Part shown: positions 13,886-23,923 of the stretch, piece after piece
Numbering within the stretch: position 1 is the stretch's first letter
Layout of the letters: the number at the start of each line of letters is the position of its first letter
Virus record (IMG/VR): IMGVR_UViG_3300017743_000105
Location: 1 to 25,656 of that record
Length of the DNA stretch: 25,656 nt
Origin: a virus
Direction: 5' to 3' (one strand)
Made by a program: the position numbers and the translations under genes
Notes under the pieces: model-generated
Told to the model about the DNA's origin: nothing
What the model saw: the letters and a program-made list of their open reading frames with translations, nothing else
The model's database searches: none

Positions 13886-14356
13886 CTAGCTTATTTTAAC
13901 CGACGTTTTTTTAGGTTTCTCTGGCTCAATCTTTGGTATCTCGATTGAGAGAAGCCCGTCTTTAAAATTAGCTTTTATGTTGTCCCCGTCAAGGAACTCG
14001 CCAAGGGTAAACTTTCTTTCGAATGCAGAATGTTTTAATTCTCTTCTAAGAACTGTAGCATTCGAGTCTTCATCGAAACCATGCTTATCCCCTTTAATCG
14101 TGAGAACACCTTCTTCAACATGTATGTTGATATTCTTCTTGTCTATTCCAGGAATCTCTGCCATAACACCAACTTTGTCATCGTACTCGTATACATTTAC
14201 TTTCGGATAAGCAGCGCCTGAAAATGGATTAACTCCTACAGTTTGTGCCACTTCAGGGTAAGTTTCTTCGAACATACTGTCAAACAGTTTATCGAATGGT
14301 GTTAAGAAATTGTCTCTTGATATTCCAGGAAAACTGGTGTATTTTACTAAGCTCAT
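13886..14356 (-). CDS. hsp20: small heat shock protein Hsp20
   Basis: Alpha-crystallin family ATP-independent chaperone. Seen: a variable N-terminus (DNFLTPFDKLFDSMFEE), then the alpha-crystallin domain at about 50-145 with PKVNVYEYDDKVGVMAEIPG, IHVEEGVLTIKGDK, FERKFTLGE and the diagnostic ANFKDGLLSIEIPK (G-x-L near 131-133), and a short C-terminal extension. At 156 aa it has normal length. Phage-encoded Hsp20 is common in marine T4-like myoviruses, where it is thought to assist folding or virion assembly. SD AAGGAG lies 6-7 nt before the ATG. It is the first gene of a unit with a separate control region (14357-14508) unlike the other promoters here. Confidence 0.95.
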   Translation of the reverse strand: MSLVKYTSFPGISRDNFLTPFDKLFDSMFEETYPEVAQTVGVNPFSGAAYPKVNVYEYDDKVGVMAEIPGIDKKNINIHVEEGVLTIKGDKHGFDEDSNATVLRRELKHSAFERKFTLGEFLDGDNIKANFKDGLLSIEIPKIEPEKPKKTSVKIS

Positions 14357-14805: not shown

Positions 14806-15171
14806 TTACTTTATGTTTGCCAGCTGTAACATGATAATTGCTGCAGCTAATACGATTGATATTACAGTATGCCAAGACGGCAACTCTTTTAAAATTAACA
14901 TTGTCATTATTCCAAATACAAGTGTGCCTACACCAAATCCAATAAGTCTAACATTCCAAACTCCACCAAAAATTTCATATGATAGTGTTGCTGATCTCCA
15001 AAAAAGCCACCCGATCGGAAGGCCTAAAACTACAACAGCTAAATCTTTTGAAAATAGCTGCTTAAAAAATGGATTGCTTAGAAACTGTCCCTGTAATTGG
15101 TACCACGCCATAATGTTTCCGAACACTAAGTACGTTATAAGTTTTGTGAATAGATTATATTCTAAGTTCAT
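14806..15171 (-). CDS. four-helix membrane protein (DMT/SMR-like shape), 121 aa
   Basis: Hydrophobic helices at about residues 8-28, 45-62, 74-95 and 100-118, with short charged links. Motifs visible: MAWYQLQGQF, LPIGWLFWRSATLSYEIFGG, RLIGFGVGTLVFGIMTM and a C-terminal IVLAAAIIMLQL. Four short helices and about 120 aa match the size of small multidrug-resistance proteins, and I recall similar MAWYQ-type membrane proteins in marine T4-like phages, but the SMR catalytic glutamate in helix 1 is not obvious. Start overlaps the 2OG oxygenase stop (ATGA); an in-frame ATG at 15111 is an alternative. Confidence 0.7.
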   Translation of the reverse strand: MNLEYNLFTKLITYLVFGNIMAWYQLQGQFLSNPFFKQLFSKDLAVVVLGLPIGWLFWRSATLSYEIFGGVWNVRLIGFGVGTLVFGIMTMLILKELPSWHTVISIVLAAAIIMLQLANIK

Positions 15172-15788
15172 TTTGGAACTCCTACTGTAAACAACATATC
15201 TTTGTTAATGTTATGATGCATATTTCCAGCACAGATATATCGTGGATTTTTAAATTTTTGTGAAGGCACAAAGTGTTGTGCCCAACCTGGAAATAATATC
15301 AACATTCCAGGAAATATGTCATATCTTCTATTGAAACCTGGAAAATGTATTCCTGGATGATCTTTGTCCGCTGTAATGTAATAACAAAAAGAAAGTGCAG
15401 CAGGATAGTGATGATGTTGTATTGCCTCTTCACCAGACAGATATTTTGTACCCCACATGTCAGACATCACAGGATTCTCAAAGTTTGGTGACATCGCATC
15501 AATAGCACATGATAAAACTATCTGTGCTAACTTTCTATAACCTGGTATCTTTCCTCTGTACCACTGAGTCATTTGTGCTTTTACATTGCTTCCATGATTT
15601 TGCCTATCTCCCTGCGCTTCTATATCTTCAATAAGCAGCTTATCCATTTCGGGATCTTTTATTTCACCAATAAATATTTCAGATTCTTGTGTGTATTCTA
15701 GTTTACCTGTTGAATACATTACTATAGGATCATCAATGAAGTGATCGCATACTATTCCACCATCTTCTTTTTTTACTATTTTACTCAT
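15168..15788 (-). CDS. 2OG-Fe(II) oxygenase-like protein
   Basis: Fits the phage-rich 2OG-FeII_Oxy_5-type family, non-haem iron dioxygenases that hydroxylate proteins, nucleic acids or small molecules using 2-oxoglutarate. Seen: EEAIQHHHYPAALSFCYYI (metal histidines about 125-127), a middle HPGIHFPGFNRRYDIFPGML, then LFPGWAQHFVPSQ with the distal iron ligand H172, and the 2OG-binding arginine in PRYICAGNM (R183). The N-terminal 100 residues are helical and specific to this protein. Fold assignment is good; the substrate is unknown. 206 aa is normal for the family. Translationally coupled with the membrane protein downstream and close to a 55-aa ORF upstream. Confidence 0.82.
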   Translation of the reverse strand: MSKIVKKEDGGIVCDHFIDDPIVMYSTGKLEYTQESEIFIGEIKDPEMDKLLIEDIEAQGDRQNHGSNVKAQMTQWYRGKIPGYRKLAQIVLSCAIDAMSPNFENPVMSDMWGTKYLSGEEAIQHHHYPAALSFCYYITADKDHPGIHFPGFNRRYDIFPGMLILFPGWAQHFVPSQKFKNPRYICAGNMHHNINKDMLFTVGVPK

Positions 15789-16487: not shown

Positions 16488-17077
16488 ATTTTTACCTCAA
16501 TTCCTATTTTAGCTTTATAAAATTCTTTGCCTTGAAGTTTGGATATTTCGCCTACATTATACAACCTAATTTTTTCAGTAAGCTTGTAAGATACTTTAAA
16601 CTTGTCTTCAAATTCAAATGTATCTCTACCGTCTTCTTCACTTGGAGGTAAGTAGCCATCAAAAGAAACATCAACTTCTATTTTATTATTGTAATACGCT
16701 TTCTTTTTAGACACACCAAAAGATATGAATGTTACAAAGTTGCTACTGAATAGATTTTCGTTTGTATTACGGCTGGTAAAGCCGAATGACATGTTTTTGT
16801 AACTTCTTCTTGCATCAATTTTGAGATACCTTACATCTTGGCTTTGCTTGTCCATATACTCAGGTTTAAAATAAATGCCATTGTCAAACTTATACCAAAA
16901 CAAATCATCTATGTAGAACTCACCAAGTTCTCTTTCCCACTGTCTGTTAGCATAAAAATTATCATTGCTTATTCCAATACTAACCTCATAATCATCTGGG
17001 TTTGGCTGTGTATTTGGTGTCCTTGCCGCGAATGAACTAAATAACATTACACCTGCTAATAAACTGTCTAATACCAT
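16484..17077 (-). CDS. secreted beta-rich (barrel-like) protein, 197 aa
   Basis: Unrecognised family. Residues 1-18 (VLDSLLAGVMLFSSFAA) look like a signal peptide with an AxA-type cleavage region, though without the usual basic N-terminus. The rest alternates polar and aromatic residues in regular strands with tight turns: YEVSIGISNDNFYANRQWER, FDNGIYFKPEYMDK, VRYLKIDARRSYKNMSFGFT, FVTFISFGVSKKKAYYNNKI, EVDVSFDGYLPPS, FKVSYKLTEKIRLYNVGEIS, FYKAKIGIEVKI. This periodicity resembles a small outer-membrane beta barrel of perhaps eight strands. The last residue is not the canonical Phe, so insertion by the Bam complex is not certain. Overlaps the thioredoxin gene by one base. Confidence 0.65.
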   Translation of the reverse strand: MVLDSLLAGVMLFSSFAARTPNTQPNPDDYEVSIGISNDNFYANRQWERELGEFYIDDLFWYKFDNGIYFKPEYMDKQSQDVRYLKIDARRSYKNMSFGFTSRNTNENLFSSNFVTFISFGVSKKKAYYNNKIEVDVSFDGYLPPSEEDGRDTFEFEDKFKVSYKLTEKIRLYNVGEISKLQGKEFYKAKIGIEVKI

Positions 17078-17322
17078 TACGATAACTCCTTGATCATTTC
17101 TTCTTTACTTTTAATTCCTACAATACGATTTACTTCTTCGTCACCATCCATAATAAGCGTTGTTGGTACTGAACGAATATTAGCATCAATAGCCATTTGT
17201 CTATTCTCATCACCATCTATGAACTCTATATTATATCCTTCATCTGATAACTCTTGCATTATAGGTTTGAATTGTTTACAAGGTCCACACCACGTAGCAC
17301 TAAAATACTTTGCTGTTTTCAT
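17077..17322 (-). CDS. trx: thioredoxin
   Basis: Short thioredoxin/glutaredoxin-fold protein of 81 aa with the redox motif WCGPC (residues about 12-16) and the cis-proline loop in RSVPTTLIMDG (P53). N-terminal YFSATWCGPCKQFKPIMQEL is typical; the C-terminal helix KSKEEMIKEL closes the fold. It is shorter than bacterial TrxA (about 108 aa) because the first strand/helix is missing, as in archaeal and phage mini-thioredoxins. Likely reduces phage or host proteins such as ribonucleotide reductase; partner unknown. SD AGGAGG lies about 7 nt before the start, inside the 40-aa gene. Confidence 0.93.
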   Translation of the reverse strand: MKTAKYFSATWCGPCKQFKPIMQELSDEGYNIEFIDGDENRQMAIDANIRSVPTTLIMDGDEEVNRIVGIKSKEEMIKELS

Positions 17323-17520: not shown

Positions 17521-17622
17521 TTAGTATTCTGGCCTCCTGCCAAAGTCATTTTTTTCAAATCTCTTCTTTAAGTGCCTACCATACAAAAAAAGCATAATCG
17601 AAAGTTTTATTCTATCTACCAT
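17521..17622 (-). CDS. small basic peptide, 33 aa
   Basis: MVDRIKLSIMLFLYGRHLKK then RFEKNDFGRRPEY. ATG at 17622 lies in the last codons of uvdE (11-nt overlap). A short hydrophobic patch with a basic tail. Supported only by overlap and by filling the gap to the next ORF. Confidence 0.45.
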   Translation of the reverse strand: MVDRIKLSIMLFLYGRHLKKRFEKNDFGRRPEY

Positions 17623-18553
17623 GTATCTGATGATATTTCTCAACTGCCAACTCCTTGTGTTTCGCTTCGACTACGATATCAACATCGTAACCATAAGTAT
17701 CGATGTACTGATATACGTAGTCAGAATGCGCTTGTGGTTTTATTTTAGGGTCGCCTTTTTCTTCACTCCTAGATTCCGAATAATGGAAACAAGGCTTGAT
17801 GCCTTTCGGCCAAGTCGACGCAGCCAGCTTAACGGCATCGCGCTCGGTAAGATCGCCAGGGCAAAACCTGTGGTGATGATAGTCGAACACGATGGGCAAG
17901 CCAATACGACGGTATACTCCATGATATAGATCCTCCACTGAGTAACATGTTGCCTTATCGTCGTTTTCGACAGTAAGACGGGTTTTAACTGAATCTGGTA
18001 GACGTTCGAAGTTCTTAACGAACCTGTTTAGTGCATTTTCTTTTTCACCATAAACGCCTCCAGCATGAATATTAATTTTATTGTAGGGAGTCCGAGACAA
18101 TCCCATCATATCGAATACTTCGCCGTGGATCGTTAAGTCGTTGATGCAGTTCTGTACTACGTGCTCATGCGGTGATGTAAGAACATTGAATTGTCCCGGA
18201 TGTGTTGTAAGCCTAAGGCCACCTTTAGTCGCTTTCTCTCCGCCAGATTTTAGCCAAAACTTAATTTCCTCTAGGTCTTTAAGTTGGCCCCATTTATATT
18301 CGGACTTCCAAGGGATCATAGAAGATGAGATGCGAAATAACTCATAACCTTGCTCTATGTTCCACTCGATAATCTTGTCCAGATCTCTGACGTTTTTTAG
18401 TATAATCTCAGACGCATAATCTGTACCTTTCGATTCGAAAGTACGTTTGATCATTGTTCGCCCGGTTGTTATCCGTTCTACACCTTTTTCTTTTCCACCG
18501 TACTGTTGCGGATAACTGAGTTGCATATTAATGCATGCATAACCTAGTGCCAT
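17612..18553 (-). CDS. uvdE: UV damage endonuclease UvdE
   Basis: TIM-barrel endonuclease that nicks 5' to UV photoproducts (cyclobutane dimers, 6-4 products) and some other lesions, starting an alternative excision repair. All expected metal and active-site motifs are visible in order: THPGQ (H118), NIHAGG (H163), TVENDDK (E196), VFDYHHHR (D224, H226-228), PCFHYSES (H257), QAHSDYV (H276) and VVEAKHKE (E296, with the nearby lysine that is often modified in this family). At 313 aa it is a complete enzyme of normal length. The ATG at 18553 lies 4 nt after the stop of the glycosylase gene. The DNA is more GC-rich than its neighbours (34 of 60 bases at 17821-17880), suggesting a recent or separate origin. 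Confidence 0.95.
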   Translation of the reverse strand: MALGYACINMQLSYPQQYGGKEKGVERITTGRTMIKRTFESKGTDYASEIILKNVRDLDKIIEWNIEQGYELFRISSSMIPWKSEYKWGQLKDLEEIKFWLKSGGEKATKGGLRLTTHPGQFNVLTSPHEHVVQNCINDLTIHGEVFDMMGLSRTPYNKINIHAGGVYGEKENALNRFVKNFERLPDSVKTRLTVENDDKATCYSVEDLYHGVYRRIGLPIVFDYHHHRFCPGDLTERDAVKLAASTWPKGIKPCFHYSESRSEEKGDPKIKPQAHSDYVYQYIDTYGYDVDIVVEAKHKELAVEKYHQIHGR

Positions 18554-18557
18554 ATTT

Positions 18558-18980
18558 TTAGCTTCTCCCTAATTGTGTTTGTTGTTCTAGTGCAGTTGCC
18601 AAATAAAGATTCAAGACCTTATCATTAGGCTGCACATTAAAATTATTATGCTGAAAGATTTCCCACGAATCTTTTGCATACTTACCAATTCCGTGCAATT
18701 CAGAAGGATCACTAAATCCGTCAAGATACTCTAAGCTAAAACGAATTAGTGTAACTGCTCTCTTATTTTGCATACCCAATGGTGTTAGCATTTTAGAAAG
18801 TTCTGATACAGCTGCGTTAGCCAAGTCTCTAGGATTGGGATATTTTTTAAATAACTTGTGTCGAATTTTATCGACTTGTTTTCTAGTTGTTAAGTTAAGC
18901 ATTATACAACAGACCAACATTTTCCACGGGTCATTTTTATATATATCCTGCAAAAGTCTGAAATTGCGAACTTTTATCAT
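18558..18980 (-). CDS. MBD4-like HhH-GPD DNA glycosylase
   Basis: Resembles the glycosylase domain of MBD4, which excises T or U opposite G. Seen in a 140-aa frame: DPWKMLVCCIMLNLTTRKQ (about 17-35), KYPNPRDLA, LTPLGMQNKRAVTLIRFS, the helix-hairpin-helix LHGIGKYAKDSWEIF (about 95-109), and PNDKVLNLYL where D120 aligns with the catalytic aspartate of MBD4 (PEDHKLNKY in the vertebrate protein). No iron-sulfur cluster cysteines, consistent with MBD4 rather than EndoIII/MutY. Start taken at ATG 18980, which overlaps the upstream stop as ATGA; a TTG at 19025 is less likely. Directly followed by uvdE, making a base-excision plus UV-repair pair. Confidence 0.85.
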   Translation of the reverse strand: MIKVRNFRLLQDIYKNDPWKMLVCCIMLNLTTRKQVDKIRHKLFKKYPNPRDLANAAVSELSKMLTPLGMQNKRAVTLIRFSLEYLDGFSDPSELHGIGKYAKDSWEIFQHNNFNVQPNDKVLNLYLATALEQQTQLGRS

Positions 18981-19192
18981 ATAACGTCTACGATTCTCGA
19001 TTCTCTTACTGAAGTTAATTCCCAATCATTCGGATTTGCAGTCATCATCTCACCGACTTTGTTTTCAACAACTGATACTGATGTTGCTTCACCTACAAGA
19101 ATTTCTTCTTTTAGTTTTTTGATTTTAGTATTGCCTTTGTTGCCAACAGGAATTTCTATTTCCTGTACAACTGTTGCGATGTAGTATTTCAT
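18977..19192 (-). CDS. DUF4494-like small protein, 71 aa
   Basis: Seen: KYYIATVVQEIEIPVGNKGN, then KIKKLKEEILVGEATSVSVV, ENKVGEMM, and NDWELTSVRESRIVDVI. The order of strand, K-x-x-x-E-x-x-L-V-x-x-A-x-S/T-x-x-x-x-E helix, and a final V-x-x-S/T-R-I-x-x-V/I strand resembles DUF4494, a common phage/Bacteroidetes family of unknown function. The assignment is by pattern from memory and tentative. ATGA overlaps on both sides couple it to the 30-aa peptide and the glycosylase. Confidence 0.65.
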   Translation of the reverse strand: MKYYIATVVQEIEIPVGNKGNTKIKKLKEEILVGEATSVSVVENKVGEMMTANPNDWELTSVRESRIVDVI

Positions 19193-19281
19193 TTATTTTC
19201 CTTTTCTTTCATTATTATAAAAATTAAAGTTGTCATTCCGCCAAGCAGCATGAGCATCATCATCACAATTGATTCGATCAT
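19189..19281 (-). CDS. single-pass membrane micropeptide, 30 aa
   Basis: MIESIVMMMLMLLGGMTTLI then FIIMKEKENK: one Met/Leu-rich hydrophobic helix with a charged C-terminus. The ATG overlaps the ligase stop (ATGA) and its TGA overlaps the next ATG. Two exact stop-start overlaps around a 30-codon frame make it likely to be translated. Confidence 0.6.
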   Translation of the reverse strand: MIESIVMMMLMLLGGMTTLIFIIMKEKENK

Positions 19282-20627
19282 ACTTGCCTGCCGTTCTCAT
19301 AAACTGTTTTACAGACAGGGAATCTTAATGAGAATTTACCTGTCTTGTCCTGAGACTCTTCAAAGTACTGAACAGTAATTTCTTTGCCGAGGATTTTGCT
19401 AGGATCATTGAAATAAACCTGTCTATCACCTATTGAGAATCCAGATCCAACAGACACTGGATTTCCTTTGTGCTCGATAATAACATTTGTCATTGTCATG
19501 ATTTCTGTTTCAAGCCCTGTTCCTTTGTCGATAATTCTAAATGGACCAGTCTCAATGTCTTTAACGATATATTCATCATCAATAAATTTCTTACATTTAA
19601 GAATATCATTTGATCTTTTGCCTTTGTAAGTAGTGTTTTTACGAAGCATGATACCTTCCCATCCTGCTTCATCAGCAACATCTAAGATGCTTAGTACATC
19701 TTCTTCATTAATAACTGTATTGTGTGTAACAGGATCGATAGAGAATGCATCATTGATTAAGCATTCTTGTCCGAGTGTTCTCATAAACCATGTCCATCTT
19801 TCCATCATTGTTCTTTCACTAGTGCATGAATCGAACTCTTCAGTAGTCAAGCAATCAAATACTTTAAAACGAGGACTGTTAATTGTGTGATCTTTGCGTC
19901 TGATCTCTTTGATAACTGACTGGAAGTCTTCATCACCGTTTTTATCAACAATACATAACTCGCCATCTAATACAATATTATCAGTAGCTAGTACATGATC
20001 GCTAAGATCTGCAGCAACATTGCTTAGTGTATGAAACTCTTTGCCTTGACGTGAGAAGAATTTAATCTGACGATCTTCAATTCTACAAATAACTCTGACA
20101 CCATCTAGCTTACGTGAGTAGAACCATTCTTCATTGTCCCAGTCAATTCTGTGTGCATGCTTTTCAAATGCAGTTGCCAAAGCAACATCAAATGTAGGGA
20201 TCAGACCAGGAATAACTTTATTAATAAGCTTTGAATCGGCACGAGCTTTAAGACTTCGTTCAAATACAAGAGATAATGGAAAGTCCATGCCGACTCTACG
20301 CCTGTAATTATTAACACAACCTAAAGCTGAGTGACCTGTAATATTTCTTTCACTTAGCATCTTAAGAAGATCAAATATTCTACCATCAAACTCAAAGTCT
20401 AAGTCTTTACGCTTAAGAATATTTTTCCAAGTTACACCGTACTGCATGTAAGGATTGTACATCATTGAAACTAGCTCTTGTAATTCTTTATCTGATACTA
20501 AGAAATCTTTAAGTACTTGAACTTTGTCATTAGTACTATTAGAAGTATTAAGACGATCATGAAGACGTTGAAGTCTGAACAGTAATTCTCTGTCCCTTGG
20601 TGAGTTGATTAGTTTTTTATTATTCAT
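19278..20627 (-). CDS. ATP-dependent DNA ligase
   Basis: Nucleotidyltransferase-superfamily ligase that seals nicks through a lysine-AMP intermediate; functional counterpart of T4 gp30. Seen: helical N-terminal domain (1-140); motif I KLDGVR (K173 nucleophile); motif Ia FFSRQGKE; motif III region with DGELCIV (220-226) and RFKVFDCLT; motif IV GWEGIMLRK (322-330); motif V DILKCKKF (341-348); and an OB domain (350-449) with EITVQYFEESQ and a final KFSLRFPVCK. At 449 aa it is complete and near T4 gp30 (487). It is the first gene after promoter copy B, with a weak AAGG-type Shine-Dalgarno. It probably also closes the gaps made by the glycosylase and UvdE downstream. Confidence 0.92.
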   Translation of the reverse strand: MNNKKLINSPRDRELLFRLQRLHDRLNTSNSTNDKVQVLKDFLVSDKELQELVSMMYNPYMQYGVTWKNILKRKDLDFEFDGRIFDLLKMLSERNITGHSALGCVNNYRRRVGMDFPLSLVFERSLKARADSKLINKVIPGLIPTFDVALATAFEKHAHRIDWDNEEWFYSRKLDGVRVICRIEDRQIKFFSRQGKEFHTLSNVAADLSDHVLATDNIVLDGELCIVDKNGDEDFQSVIKEIRRKDHTINSPRFKVFDCLTTEEFDSCTSERTMMERWTWFMRTLGQECLINDAFSIDPVTHNTVINEEDVLSILDVADEAGWEGIMLRKNTTYKGKRSNDILKCKKFIDDEYIVKDIETGPFRIIDKGTGLETEIMTMTNVIIEHKGNPVSVGSGFSIGDRQVYFNDPSKILGKEITVQYFEESQDKTGKFSLRFPVCKTVYENGRQV

Positions 20628-21091: not shown

Positions 21092-21248
21092 CTTTCTCTT
21101 TCTTCTTACTGTTTTCTTTTAAATACTCCAGAAGTTTAGTAGTTGCAGCTCTATCGTCTCCTTCATGTCTAGGCTGTGATTCTAATTGCATAACACGTTT
21201 TTCTAGATTTTCTATTCTAGTGAGCATGAGCTCTAATATCTTATCCAC
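21072..21248 (-). CDS. small coiled-coil protein, 58 aa
   Basis: GTG start at 21248 overlapping the deformylase stop; an internal ATG at 21227 is an alternative. Sequence: DKILELMLTRIENLEKRVMQ (a heptad-like coil), a polar turn, then TTKLLEYLKENSKKKEKDEE. Could form a small oligomer and partner with the membrane peptide encoded over its 3' end. Function unknown. Confidence 0.55.
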   Translation of the reverse strand: MDKILELMLTRIENLEKRVMQLESQPRHEGDDRAATTKLLEYLKENSKKKEKDEELNR

Positions 21249-21882
21249 TTATTTCCCAACCTTCCTTTAGTAAGTTTTGCACTTTCTTATACTTCATTAC
21301 TTTAACTGCATCGCCTTTTTTTATGGTAACCAAATGATTTCTACCAATCTTCTTTTCTGCACGATAAGTCGTATCTATCCTTCTGTCCATGCAAACGATT
21401 CCGCTTAAATGGTCTACTTCATGTTGCACACATACAGCTTCTAAAAGTCGTATTGCAGTATCTTGCTGATTGGATTTATCTTCCCATACACCTTTGGCAC
21501 CTTCGATACCAGTTGCCTTACCACTAAATATCAACGAACCTTCCTGTTGTGCAGTTTTTACTTCGACTGTTTCGTATCTTTCGGTTCGTATTCCCTTGCC
21601 AGGGTAAGATAAGCAACCCTCATAATAGCTAACCTTGTCAGACTTACTAATGATCTCAGGGTTGATGAGTATAATAGGCTCACGAACATTGAGTACGGCC
21701 ACTTGTGCATCAATTCCCACTTGATTCGCTGCCAAGCCAATCCCGTCTTTTCTTTTGTTAAGTATCTGAAATAGTTTTGTTGCAATTTCCATTCCTTCTT
21801 CAACAGTTACCTCCCTAAGCTTCTTGTTAATCACAGGGTTGTGATTCTTGTTGCAGTTAATTACCTTAAGATTATTCTCCAA
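21241..21882 (-). CDS. def: peptide deformylase with insertion and C-terminal extension
   Basis: Metalloenzyme removing the N-formyl group from nascent proteins; common in marine T4-like phages. Motif I GIGLAANQVG (47-56), motif II EGCLS (88-92, metal ligand C90) and motif III HEVDH (154-158) are all intact. The distance from motif II to III is about 66 residues against roughly 43 in standard enzymes, so there is an insertion at about 118-147 (GKATGIEGAKGVWEDKSNQQ and following). After the catalytic domain comes a basic tail (HLVTIKKGDAVKVMKYKKVQ, then NLLKEGWEISG), a motif I recall at the ends of other marine phage proteins. TTG start at 21882 with GGGG upstream; no nearby ATG. Confidence 0.9.
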   Translation of the reverse strand: MENNLKVINCNKNHNPVINKKLREVTVEEGMEIATKLFQILNKRKDGIGLAANQVGIDAQVAVLNVREPIILINPEIISKSDKVSYYEGCLSYPGKGIRTERYETVEVKTAQQEGSLIFSGKATGIEGAKGVWEDKSNQQDTAIRLLEAVCVQHEVDHLSGIVCMDRRIDTTYRAEKKIGRNHLVTIKKGDAVKVMKYKKVQNLLKEGWEISG

Positions 21883-23035: not shown

Positions 23036-23118
23036 GTAACCTCCATTTGTCTTTTCTGCAAGTATATAAAATATATTGCAATAACCTTGATTGATAGAAT
23101 AATTATAAAGTATGTCAA
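23036..23118 (-). promoter_or_regulatory. leader of HNH gene with weak promoter-like sequence
   Basis: A 79-nt gap, AT-rich. On the minus strand TTGACA (23118-23113) is followed at 16 nt by TATCAA, and further down TATACT occurs without a good -35. This could be a separate host-type promoter, but the match is partial. No copy of the four-copy cassette is present. Confidence 0.3.
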
Positions 23119-23783
23119 CTAGTACTATCTGCTTTTTTCGATGAGTTAATCAGTGCGTCTGATACCTGTGCGCTGAGTAATGATTGAATTGAAAAGTAAA
23201 GTGAAGGATTACGCTTAAGTAGAGATTTAAACTCAGGCTGTTTCCACACTAAACATTCAGTATCATGTTTTGCAATACAATCAGCAGTTGCCGGTCTTTC
23301 TGTAAGAAAACTCATCTCACCAACAAACTGCCCGTCTTTTAATTCTGTAACTTTCTTTCCCTTTACTGCTATGTCCACAGTGCCGTTATAAATTAATATT
23401 AGTTTCTTTACGTCTGCACCCTCTTTAATCATGTGATGCCCACTCTTAAATTTTTCCCACTTAGCTATCTTGGTGACCTTGAGATATTCTACAGGACTAA
23501 GATCTTTGAATAGAGATTCATATAACTCTTTGTCTTTTGGTTTCATTTTGATCGGACGCTTCTCATAGAATATAATGGCTATGTGATATAGATTGAGTCC
23601 TACAAATACTAGATTCCAACCGATCGGTAACCACATAGGTGTTATAGGAATAAAATAATTATACAGAACAGAGAACAGACTTGCAACTACCGATACTACA
23701 CGTAAATATAATATGTCCTTGACCAGAAAGCTAAATGCTATCAGACCAAATGCTAAGTGTCCTGCTATTGTTGCTAAGTTCAT
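23115..23783 (-). CDS. Popeye-like membrane protein with cyclic-nucleotide-binding domain
   Basis: Three hydrophobic helices (about residues 5-25, 30-50 and 54-77, counted from ATG 23795), then RPIKMKPKDKELYESLFKDL, then a cNMP-binding beta barrel (about 96-200: FKSGHHMIKEGADVKKLILI, YNGTVDIAVKGK, DGQFVGEMSFLTERPATADC) and a final helix. The order of three helices, R-P-(V/I)-K-hinge, L-Y-E/R-x-L/M-F, cNMP domain matches Popeye-domain (POPDC) proteins and their bacterial relatives. The phosphate-binding cassette keeps G-E (159-160) but has R-P-A-T-A, with the arginine one place earlier than in classical CRP, so ligand binding is likely but unproven. ATG 23783 overlaps the upstream stop (TAATG); ATG 23795 adds four residues. 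Confidence 0.82.
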   Translation of the reverse strand: MNLATIAGHLAFGLIAFSFLVKDILYLRVVSVVASLFSVLYNYFIPITPMWLPIGWNLVFVGLNLYHIAIIFYEKRPIKMKPKDKELYESLFKDLSPVEYLKVTKIAKWEKFKSGHHMIKEGADVKKLILIYNGTVDIAVKGKKVTELKDGQFVGEMSFLTERPATADCIAKHDTECLVWKQPEFKSLLKRNPSLYFSIQSLLSAQVSDALINSSKKADSTS

Positions 23784-23923
23784 TACAGATGCCATCCCAT
23801 TATCACAAAATAAAAGTATGCTAGTGCAGCCAATACCCAGACCGCTGTTGAAATATAGAGATTAGTTATATCCTGCTGAGTAGCAGCACTCTTCTTCTTT
23901 TCTACTTTGTCCCATTTGTTCAT
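23783..23923 (-). CDS. single-pass membrane peptide, 46 aa
   Basis: NKWDKVEKKKSAATQQDITN then LYISTAVWVLAALAYFYFVI and MGWHL. A basic cytoplasmic N-terminus and one C-terminal membrane helix (about 22-42). It ends in TAATG with the Popeye-like gene, so it may be a small subunit or partner of it. Start is 1 nt before the stop region of the 54-aa gene upstream. Confidence 0.62.
   Translation of the reverse strand: MNKWDKVEKKKSAATQQDITNLYISTAVWVLAALAYFYFVIMGWHL

Follow-up and report, generated by a model that had tools for sequence, protein, structure and literature searches.

An MBD4-group DNA glycosylase encoded next to a UvdE-family endonuclease: a candidate base-excision repair set of a phage

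The window analyzed herein is a whole 25,656-base record classed as virus (IMG/VR IMGVR_UViG_3300017743_000105), and its subject is a chain of five open reading frames (ORFs) of a marine phage on the minus strand, at positions 17612–20627, that encodes in the order of transcription a DNA ligase, a 30-residue peptide, a DUF4494-like protein, a DNA glycosylase, and a UvdE-family endonuclease. By all sequence and structure comparisons and by the tree, the glycosylase is a member of the MBD4 catalytic-domain group. On balance, the cluster appears to be a small phage base-excision repair set—the glycosylase would act on G:U and G:T, UvdE would cut the abasic site, and the ligase would seal the nick. 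This proposal is built on family membership, conserved catalytic residues, gene order, purifying selection, and recurrent partners.

The 140-residue glycosylase scores 29.2 bits with the HhH-GPD profile PF00730 (cut-off 26.2); PHROG gives no match for it, and its NCBIfam matches, to Nth and MutY, are partial and lie far below the cut-off. Compared alone with the sequences of solved structures (phmmer), it finds 15 MBD4 sequences with E-values between 7e-24 and 1.5e-22 (residues 7–133 in the best alignment), followed by the G-T enzyme 1kea at 1.8e-5. A profile of 31 phage proteins reaches 6.6e-46 for MBD4 across about 134 columns, 2.1e-13 for 1kea, and 4.1e-13 for EndoIII. The AlphaFold model, made from 42 sequences, has a pLDDT of 91.3 and a pTM of 0.85. 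In Foldseek, ranks 1–16 are all MBD4, complexes with G:T and G:5-hydroxymethyluracil (5hmU) included, with 39–41% identity, a root-mean-square deviation (rmsd) of 1.1–1.4 Å, and a TMq of 0.85–0.90; rank 17 is 1kea with a TMq of 0.66. VIA-align gives Z 20.3–21.0 for MBD4 (131–135 residues aligned, rmsd 1.6–1.8) and 14.2 for 1kea (134 aligned, rmsd 5.4). In a viral structure library, the model has a single strong match, a baculovirus protein. Membership in the EndoIII, MutY, or Mig groups was rejected, the profile and structure matches being far weaker than those to MBD4. The initial annotation, which had called the protein MBD4-like, is thus upheld by profile, model, and tree, none of which places it with another HhH-GPD group. 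From this membership, activity on G:T and G:U is the natural prediction.

The motifs on which that annotation had relied, NDPWK, LHGIGKYAKDSW, and QPND, are present, with Asp at residue 120 and Tyr at residue 101. Mapping by VIA ranges (model 4–138 onto human MBD4 442–578), combined with the gaps of the phmmer alignment, equates Q11, L30, M70, Y101, and D120 with residues 449, 468, 508, 540, and 560 of human MBD4, respectively. Y101 and D120 are invariant in both alignments (31 and 42 proteins). For Gln449 and Tyr540 of the human enzyme, the usual catalytic-domain roles are assumed herein. According to PMC5406665, Asp560 of human MBD4 is catalytic, and Arg468 and Leu508 are inserted into the helix. 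Y101 stands where bifunctional relatives carry the catalytic Lys, and a non-basic residue at this place is a mark of monofunctional glycosylases, as stated in PMC8307549. Because Tyr replaces the lyase Lys, the sequence points to a monofunctional glycosylase without lyase activity, which would therefore need a partner that cuts abasic sites. The 140 residues comprise the catalytic domain alone, and the methyl-CpG-binding domain is missing; this domain does not define the catalytic group, since plant MBD4 is also without it.

The genes of the window lie mostly on the minus strand, and a baseplate gene is among them whose relatives occur in myophage records. All five ORFs of the cluster are confirmed in the order and at the coordinates initially annotated:

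19278..20627, minus strand: ATP-dependent DNA ligase, 449 residues (PF01068 1.3e-20, DNA_ligase_OB_2 1.5e-6, phrog_114 2.8e-67)
19189..19281, minus strand: hydrophobic, membrane-like peptide, 30 residues (ORF only)
18977..19192, minus strand: DUF4494-like protein, 71 residues (PF14902 E 0.0036, below the Pfam cut-off; a weak label)
18558..18980, minus strand: MBD4-group HhH-GPD DNA glycosylase, 140 residues (PF00730, MBD4 matches, model)
18678..18680, minus strand: codon of Tyr101, equivalent of Tyr540 of human MBD4 (sequence and range mapping)
18621..18623, minus strand: codon of Asp120, equivalent of the catalytic Asp560 of human MBD4 (sequence and mapping)
17612..18553, minus strand: UvdE/UvsE-family endonuclease, 313 residues (PF03851 3.9e-60, TIGR00629 over cut-off)

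The ligase scores 74.4 bits with PF01068 (cut-off 26.2), carries the KxDG motif of the adenylation domain as KLDG, and has ATP-dependent DNA ligases as its closest solved chains (5.8e-23). The name of the DUF4494-like protein, taken from the initial annotation, is to be read with the weakness of its match; the product is probably not a repair protein. For the glycosylase, an upstream TTG start gives 155 residues and the ATG at 18980 gives 140; the ATG is the likelier start, since it overlaps the stop of the preceding gene and agrees with the start in locus L004 (L-numbers denote loci and G-numbers records; L001–L003 duplicate the window). ATGA overlaps occur at three junctions (ligase/peptide, peptide/DUF4494-like, and DUF4494-like/glycosylase), and UvdE starts 4 bases past the glycosylase stop. 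Because of these three overlaps and the short gap, translational coupling across the cluster is likely. L004, whose glycosylase is 79% identical, keeps the full order, with a 107-residue membrane-like protein in the position of the 30-residue peptide. Spacing and conserved order thus favor the single unit that had been proposed. Promoter B, which had been placed ahead of the ligase, is without support: the window holds 16 promoter-like sites against 17.3 expected, and none lies directly upstream of the ligase.

Between the window and L004, the glycosylase has 79.3% identity with nonsynonymous (dN) and synonymous (dS) divergences of 0.135 and 1.76, UvdE 83.7% identity with a dN of 0.107 and saturated dS, the ligase a dN of 0.248 and a dS of 1.41, and the DUF4494-like protein 83% identity with a dN of 0.095. 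With dN/dS well below 1, the glycosylase is under purifying selection, and the cluster genes are maintained.

The annotated identities of UvdE and ligase are borne out by scores over their family cut-offs, herein 203.9 bits for PF03851 (cut-off 24) and 211.5 for TIGR00629 (cut-off 124.45) in the case of UvdE. Against the solved UVDE 3tc3, the match is 7.9e-38, and the motifs HPGQ, IHAGG, EN, D..HH, FH, and VEAK align, whose His, Glu, and Asp residues presumably act at the metal site. UvdE had initially been assigned to UV damage in sunlit water, with nick closure left to the ligase; UvdE as a UV enzyme stands, but the assignment is too narrow. UVDE reportedly cleans up 3′ ends and, in addition to photoproducts, cuts abasic (AP) sites and uracil (PMC8307549); fission-yeast UVDE reportedly helps with AP sites (PMC8620282). 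Because such enzymes are reported to cut AP sites and uracil, UvdE is a plausible AP-cutting partner of the glycosylase, beyond a UV enzyme. Synteny extends to relatives: besides the window and L004, UvdE follows the glycosylase on the same strand in L116, L121, L122, L124, L129, L139, and L161, with 1 base to 6.8 kb between the two genes. UvdE is present in 27 of 50 glycosylase records (G009 and G010 possibly represent a single phage), including 11 of the 15 records that reach 100 kb.

A second recurrent partner is an Fpg-like gene, present in 19 of 85 glycosylase loci versus 0 of 80 loci chosen by UvdE (Fisher 1.4e-6, with related loci not independent; the neighbor clustering left out L001). 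Two representatives of this family contain the Fapy_DNA_glyco and H2TH domains by Pfam. In 11 of the 19 loci, the gene lies within 1 base of the glycosylase or overlaps it, in both gene orders. The loci with an abutting Fpg/Nei-like lyase are L022, L025–L028, L030, L033, L039, and L041–L043; two such proteins, read by eye, have a C-terminal end without most of the usual zinc-finger cysteines.

From these elements, we infer activity, substrate, the hand-over to UvdE, and the link to UV light as follows. The monofunctional glycosylase would excise uracil, and probably thymine, mispaired with G. UvdE, encoded by the following gene, would cut the backbone where the base has been removed, with UV lesions and perhaps uracil itself as further targets. 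The gap would be filled by a phage or host polymerase, and the ligase encoded upstream would close the nick. Cytosine in UV dimers deaminates rapidly. In the window lineage, the glycosylase would most likely act mainly on G:U formed when unmodified cytosine deaminates, also where this takes place in UV dimers of virions in sunlit water. In other phages, the glycosylase may work with the Fpg/Nei-like lyase, or beside dCMP-type homologs of thymidylate synthase (TS), in which case it would act on G:T or G:5hmU. Record G059, a lineage mate of the window, holds dUTPase and MazG-like genes just before UvdE (positions 41415–43421, L224), which fits a phage that excludes uracil from its own DNA.

The initial annotation had named deaminated 5-methylcytosine or cytosine as the target. 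The former is not supported for the window lineage: neither PF00303 (TS) nor PF00145 (C5-methyltransferase) is found in any of 13 glycosylase-bearing records, all of them fragments of 15.8–125.6 kb. Because no cytosine-modifying gene was found in these fragmentary records, G:U from cytosine, the second half of that suggestion, is the likelier substrate by gene content. A CpG methylation signature was rejected, the CpG odds of the 13 lineage loci that have the gene (0.62) being close to those of the 66 that do not (0.64; p 0.61); over the whole window, CpG is depleted (0.60). A link to C5-methyltransferases was likewise rejected, with PF00145 in 2 of 50 records.

A phage DNA that carries 5-methyl- or 5-hydroxymethylcytosine, with the glycosylase repairing the resulting G:T or G:5hmU, is an unlikely explanation for the cluster, although it would suit phage Xp12. 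In Xp12, every cytosine is 5-methylcytosine; gp65 of its relative AXL1, a homolog of the glycosylase, reportedly recurs only in Xp12, and AXL1 DNA is resistant to most restriction enzymes (PMC9206674). The TS homologs also speak for it. T4 gp42, the dCMP hydroxymethylase, has Asp179 as read in the T4 sequence; at this place we take ThyA to have Asn. Among 50 glycosylase records, 15 have an Asp-type TS homolog over the Pfam cut-off, 13 of them recognized by motif and the other two, G009 and G010, by eye from a single sequence; a divergent Asp-type one is present in 4 of 50 records chosen by UvdE (Fisher 0.0095, a test that treats related records as independent). With six weaker matches, two of them unread, the count for the glycosylase records becomes 21 of 50 (Fisher 0.00014). 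Asn-type TS occurs in nine of the 50 glycosylase records, some with both types, and in 11 of the 50 UvdE-chosen ones. At 100 kb or more, dCMP-type TS is found in 9 of 15 glycosylase records, unread weak G025 and G027 included, versus 1 of 7 UvdE-chosen records (p 0.07). The enrichment is suggestive only. Apart from the modification genes not found in the lineage records and the equal CpG depletion, this explanation has against it that the large gene-bearing records G011, G014, and G019 are without such enzymes, that many AXL1 relatives have a TS homolog and no glycosylase gene (81 TS versus 9 glycosylase records), and that G065, G066, G077, and G093 combine a divergent Asp-type TS and UvdE with no glycosylase. 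Repair of 5-methylcytosine is plausible in other phages with the gene but is without support in the phage of the window. In the four records last named (L207–L210), which are relatives of the window, the divergent Asp-type TS homolog lies beside a methyltransferase-like protein and an asparagine-synthase-like amidotransferase (by eye), possibly a pyrimidine hypermodification cluster.

Several observations weigh against the proposed repair set. Glycosylase is absent from 40 of 50 UvdE-chosen records (present in 10 in this reverse test), and UvdE is common in marine phages, with at least 600 stretches. In G059 (125.6 kb), the two genes are 27 kb apart. Since UvdE is often alone and the genes are so separated in G059, the pairing is not obligatory. 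Among 25 baseplate-chosen records, glycosylase occurs in 1 and UvdE in 0, although this neutral control consists of short fragments and has little power. The ligase may simply serve ordinary replication. Finally, L30 and M70 replace the Arg468 and Leu508 of human MBD4, so that recognition may differ; the intercalating Arg, which is Leu, Gln, or Cys in most aligned phage proteins, is described for the human member and not known as group-defining. The solitary UvdE genes, the distance in G059, and the presence in the chain of a DUF4494-like gene not known to act in repair would also suit mere neighbors in a DNA-metabolism operon, with UvdE acting on UV photoproducts, the glycosylase on mismatches, and host enzymes finishing each. 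This reading is improbable as well: the succession of glycosylase and UvdE is retained in several diverged lineage members, and the Fpg-like gene, encoding another type of AP-cutting enzyme, adjoins the glycosylase in two other gene orders. A counter-defense or host-takeover tool, for example one reversing cytosine deamination by a host defense or attacking modified host DNA, would match a small accessory gene that is patchy in related phages but is very hard to credit, as no defense-related neighbor was noticed and those recurrent partners that were read serve replication and repair. The repair set itself makes for a testable pairing of few small proteins—glycosylase with UvdE or Fpg-like lyase.

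The group extends far beyond the window. A scan of IMG/VR with six proteins yields at least 331 relatives, the best 80 of which provided the loci taken from there, and 9 of 50,697 INPHARED records match, cyanophage S-TIM54 and Bosavirus-type phages among them. A motif broad enough to match mouse MBD4 as well gave 53 stretches in 84,980 species genomes, 3 of them encoding a relative, all in two metagenome-assembled genomes (MAGs). In the one MAG neighborhood read (L217, Rickettsiales), genes are shared with phage contigs; L217 and L218 appear as phage-like contigs binned in that MAG. Among 398 genomes from the phylum of one MAG, the sole match at E 1e-20 is this MAG. Within the limits of these searches, the MBD4-type group looks like a phage family scarcely found in bacteria, which gives the MBD4 group a widespread branch in phages.

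A tree of 39 rows places the phage proteins with mammalian MBD4 and separates both from cellular Nth/MutY-like proteins (87/94); within the phage part, MBD4 sits with L034 and L044 (97/93). In a tree of 80 rows, which omits the partial protein L129 and three of the six cellular rows, MBD4 groups with L032, L044, and L034 (99/96), and its nesting is supported by 99/96 and 99/90. Mammalian MBD4 falls amid T4-like phages, several with a T4-gp42-like homolog of dCMP hydroxymethylase: the record of L044 (G028) has one, and those of L032 (G019) and L034 (G020) are without. A firm claim that eukaryotic MBD4 came from phages was rejected, as the trees include two mammalian sequences only and constraining the 75 phage rows to a single clade lowers the likelihood by 3.25 log units (p-AU 0.367), so that phage monophyly is not rejected and the nesting is not proven. 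It is a tentative and rather doubtful idea that the MBD4 domain is native to phages—a large and old G:T/G:U family nearly missing in bacteria and archaea, from within which eukaryotic MBD4 was taken—and that phages may have been the first to repair deaminated modified cytosine, a function that the 5-methylcytosine system of vertebrates would then have inherited. The question is raised whether a key domain of eukaryotic methylation repair came from phages.

Other genes of the window, all on the minus strand, include one at 23115–23795 that joins a Popeye-type domain (POPDC1-3, E 2.3e-13) to a cyclic-nucleotide-binding domain (6.4e-15), which is unusual in a phage and has a homolog in G059. A 2OG-Fe(II) oxygenase (15168–15788), a peptide deformylase (21241–21882), and a thioredoxin (17077–17322) are identified by Pfam, and an Hsp20-like protein (13886–14356) by eye. 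The peptide deformylase gene directly precedes the glycosylase in L010; in G059, one small ORF separates the two. The latter record encodes, by eye, several pseudopilin-like proteins and, at the record end, a TonB-receptor-like fragment (53603–55832 and 2–2311), which may indicate the host.

Compared with known systems, the phage UvdE shares family and metal-site motifs with the UVDE enzymes 3tc3 and 2j6v, presumably of Sulfolobus and Thermus, and unlike these adjoins a glycosylase gene. With the glycosylase domain of mouse and human MBD4, the phage protein has in common the fold over its entire length, the equivalents of Gln449, Tyr540, and Asp560, and the domain length; it differs by the missing methyl-CpG-binding domain, by Leu for Arg468, and by being encoded in a phage operon. 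Plant AtMBD4 also has the MBD4 catalytic domain without a methyl-binding domain (PMC10573277) but possesses a long N-terminal part and is a plant nuclear enzyme. The Mig-type 1kea, a thymine glycosylase per its title, is of the HhH-GPD type too, with much weaker resemblance in sequence and structure. The absence of a well-described phage system of this kind, as noted initially, agrees with open PubMed Central, where titles and abstract starts describe no phage MBD4 enzyme or such cluster; the gene itself, however, was already reported as AXL1 gp65. That protein was published as an EndoIII-like "ENDO3c" with absent active-site motifs, common only to Xp12 (PMC9206674, the text of which contains neither MBD4 nor glycosylase as a word). 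The Xp12 homolog is known from that text, and Xp12 was not among the tblastn matches. Both belong to the phage MBD4 group as well, gp65 being 40% identical to the window protein, and gp65 hereby gains a likely identity. Whereas gp65 is adjoined by genes for a pyrophosphohydrolase, a TS homolog of the dCMP type, dCMP deaminase, and DHFR, the glycosylase of the window has UvdE and the ligase as its neighbors.

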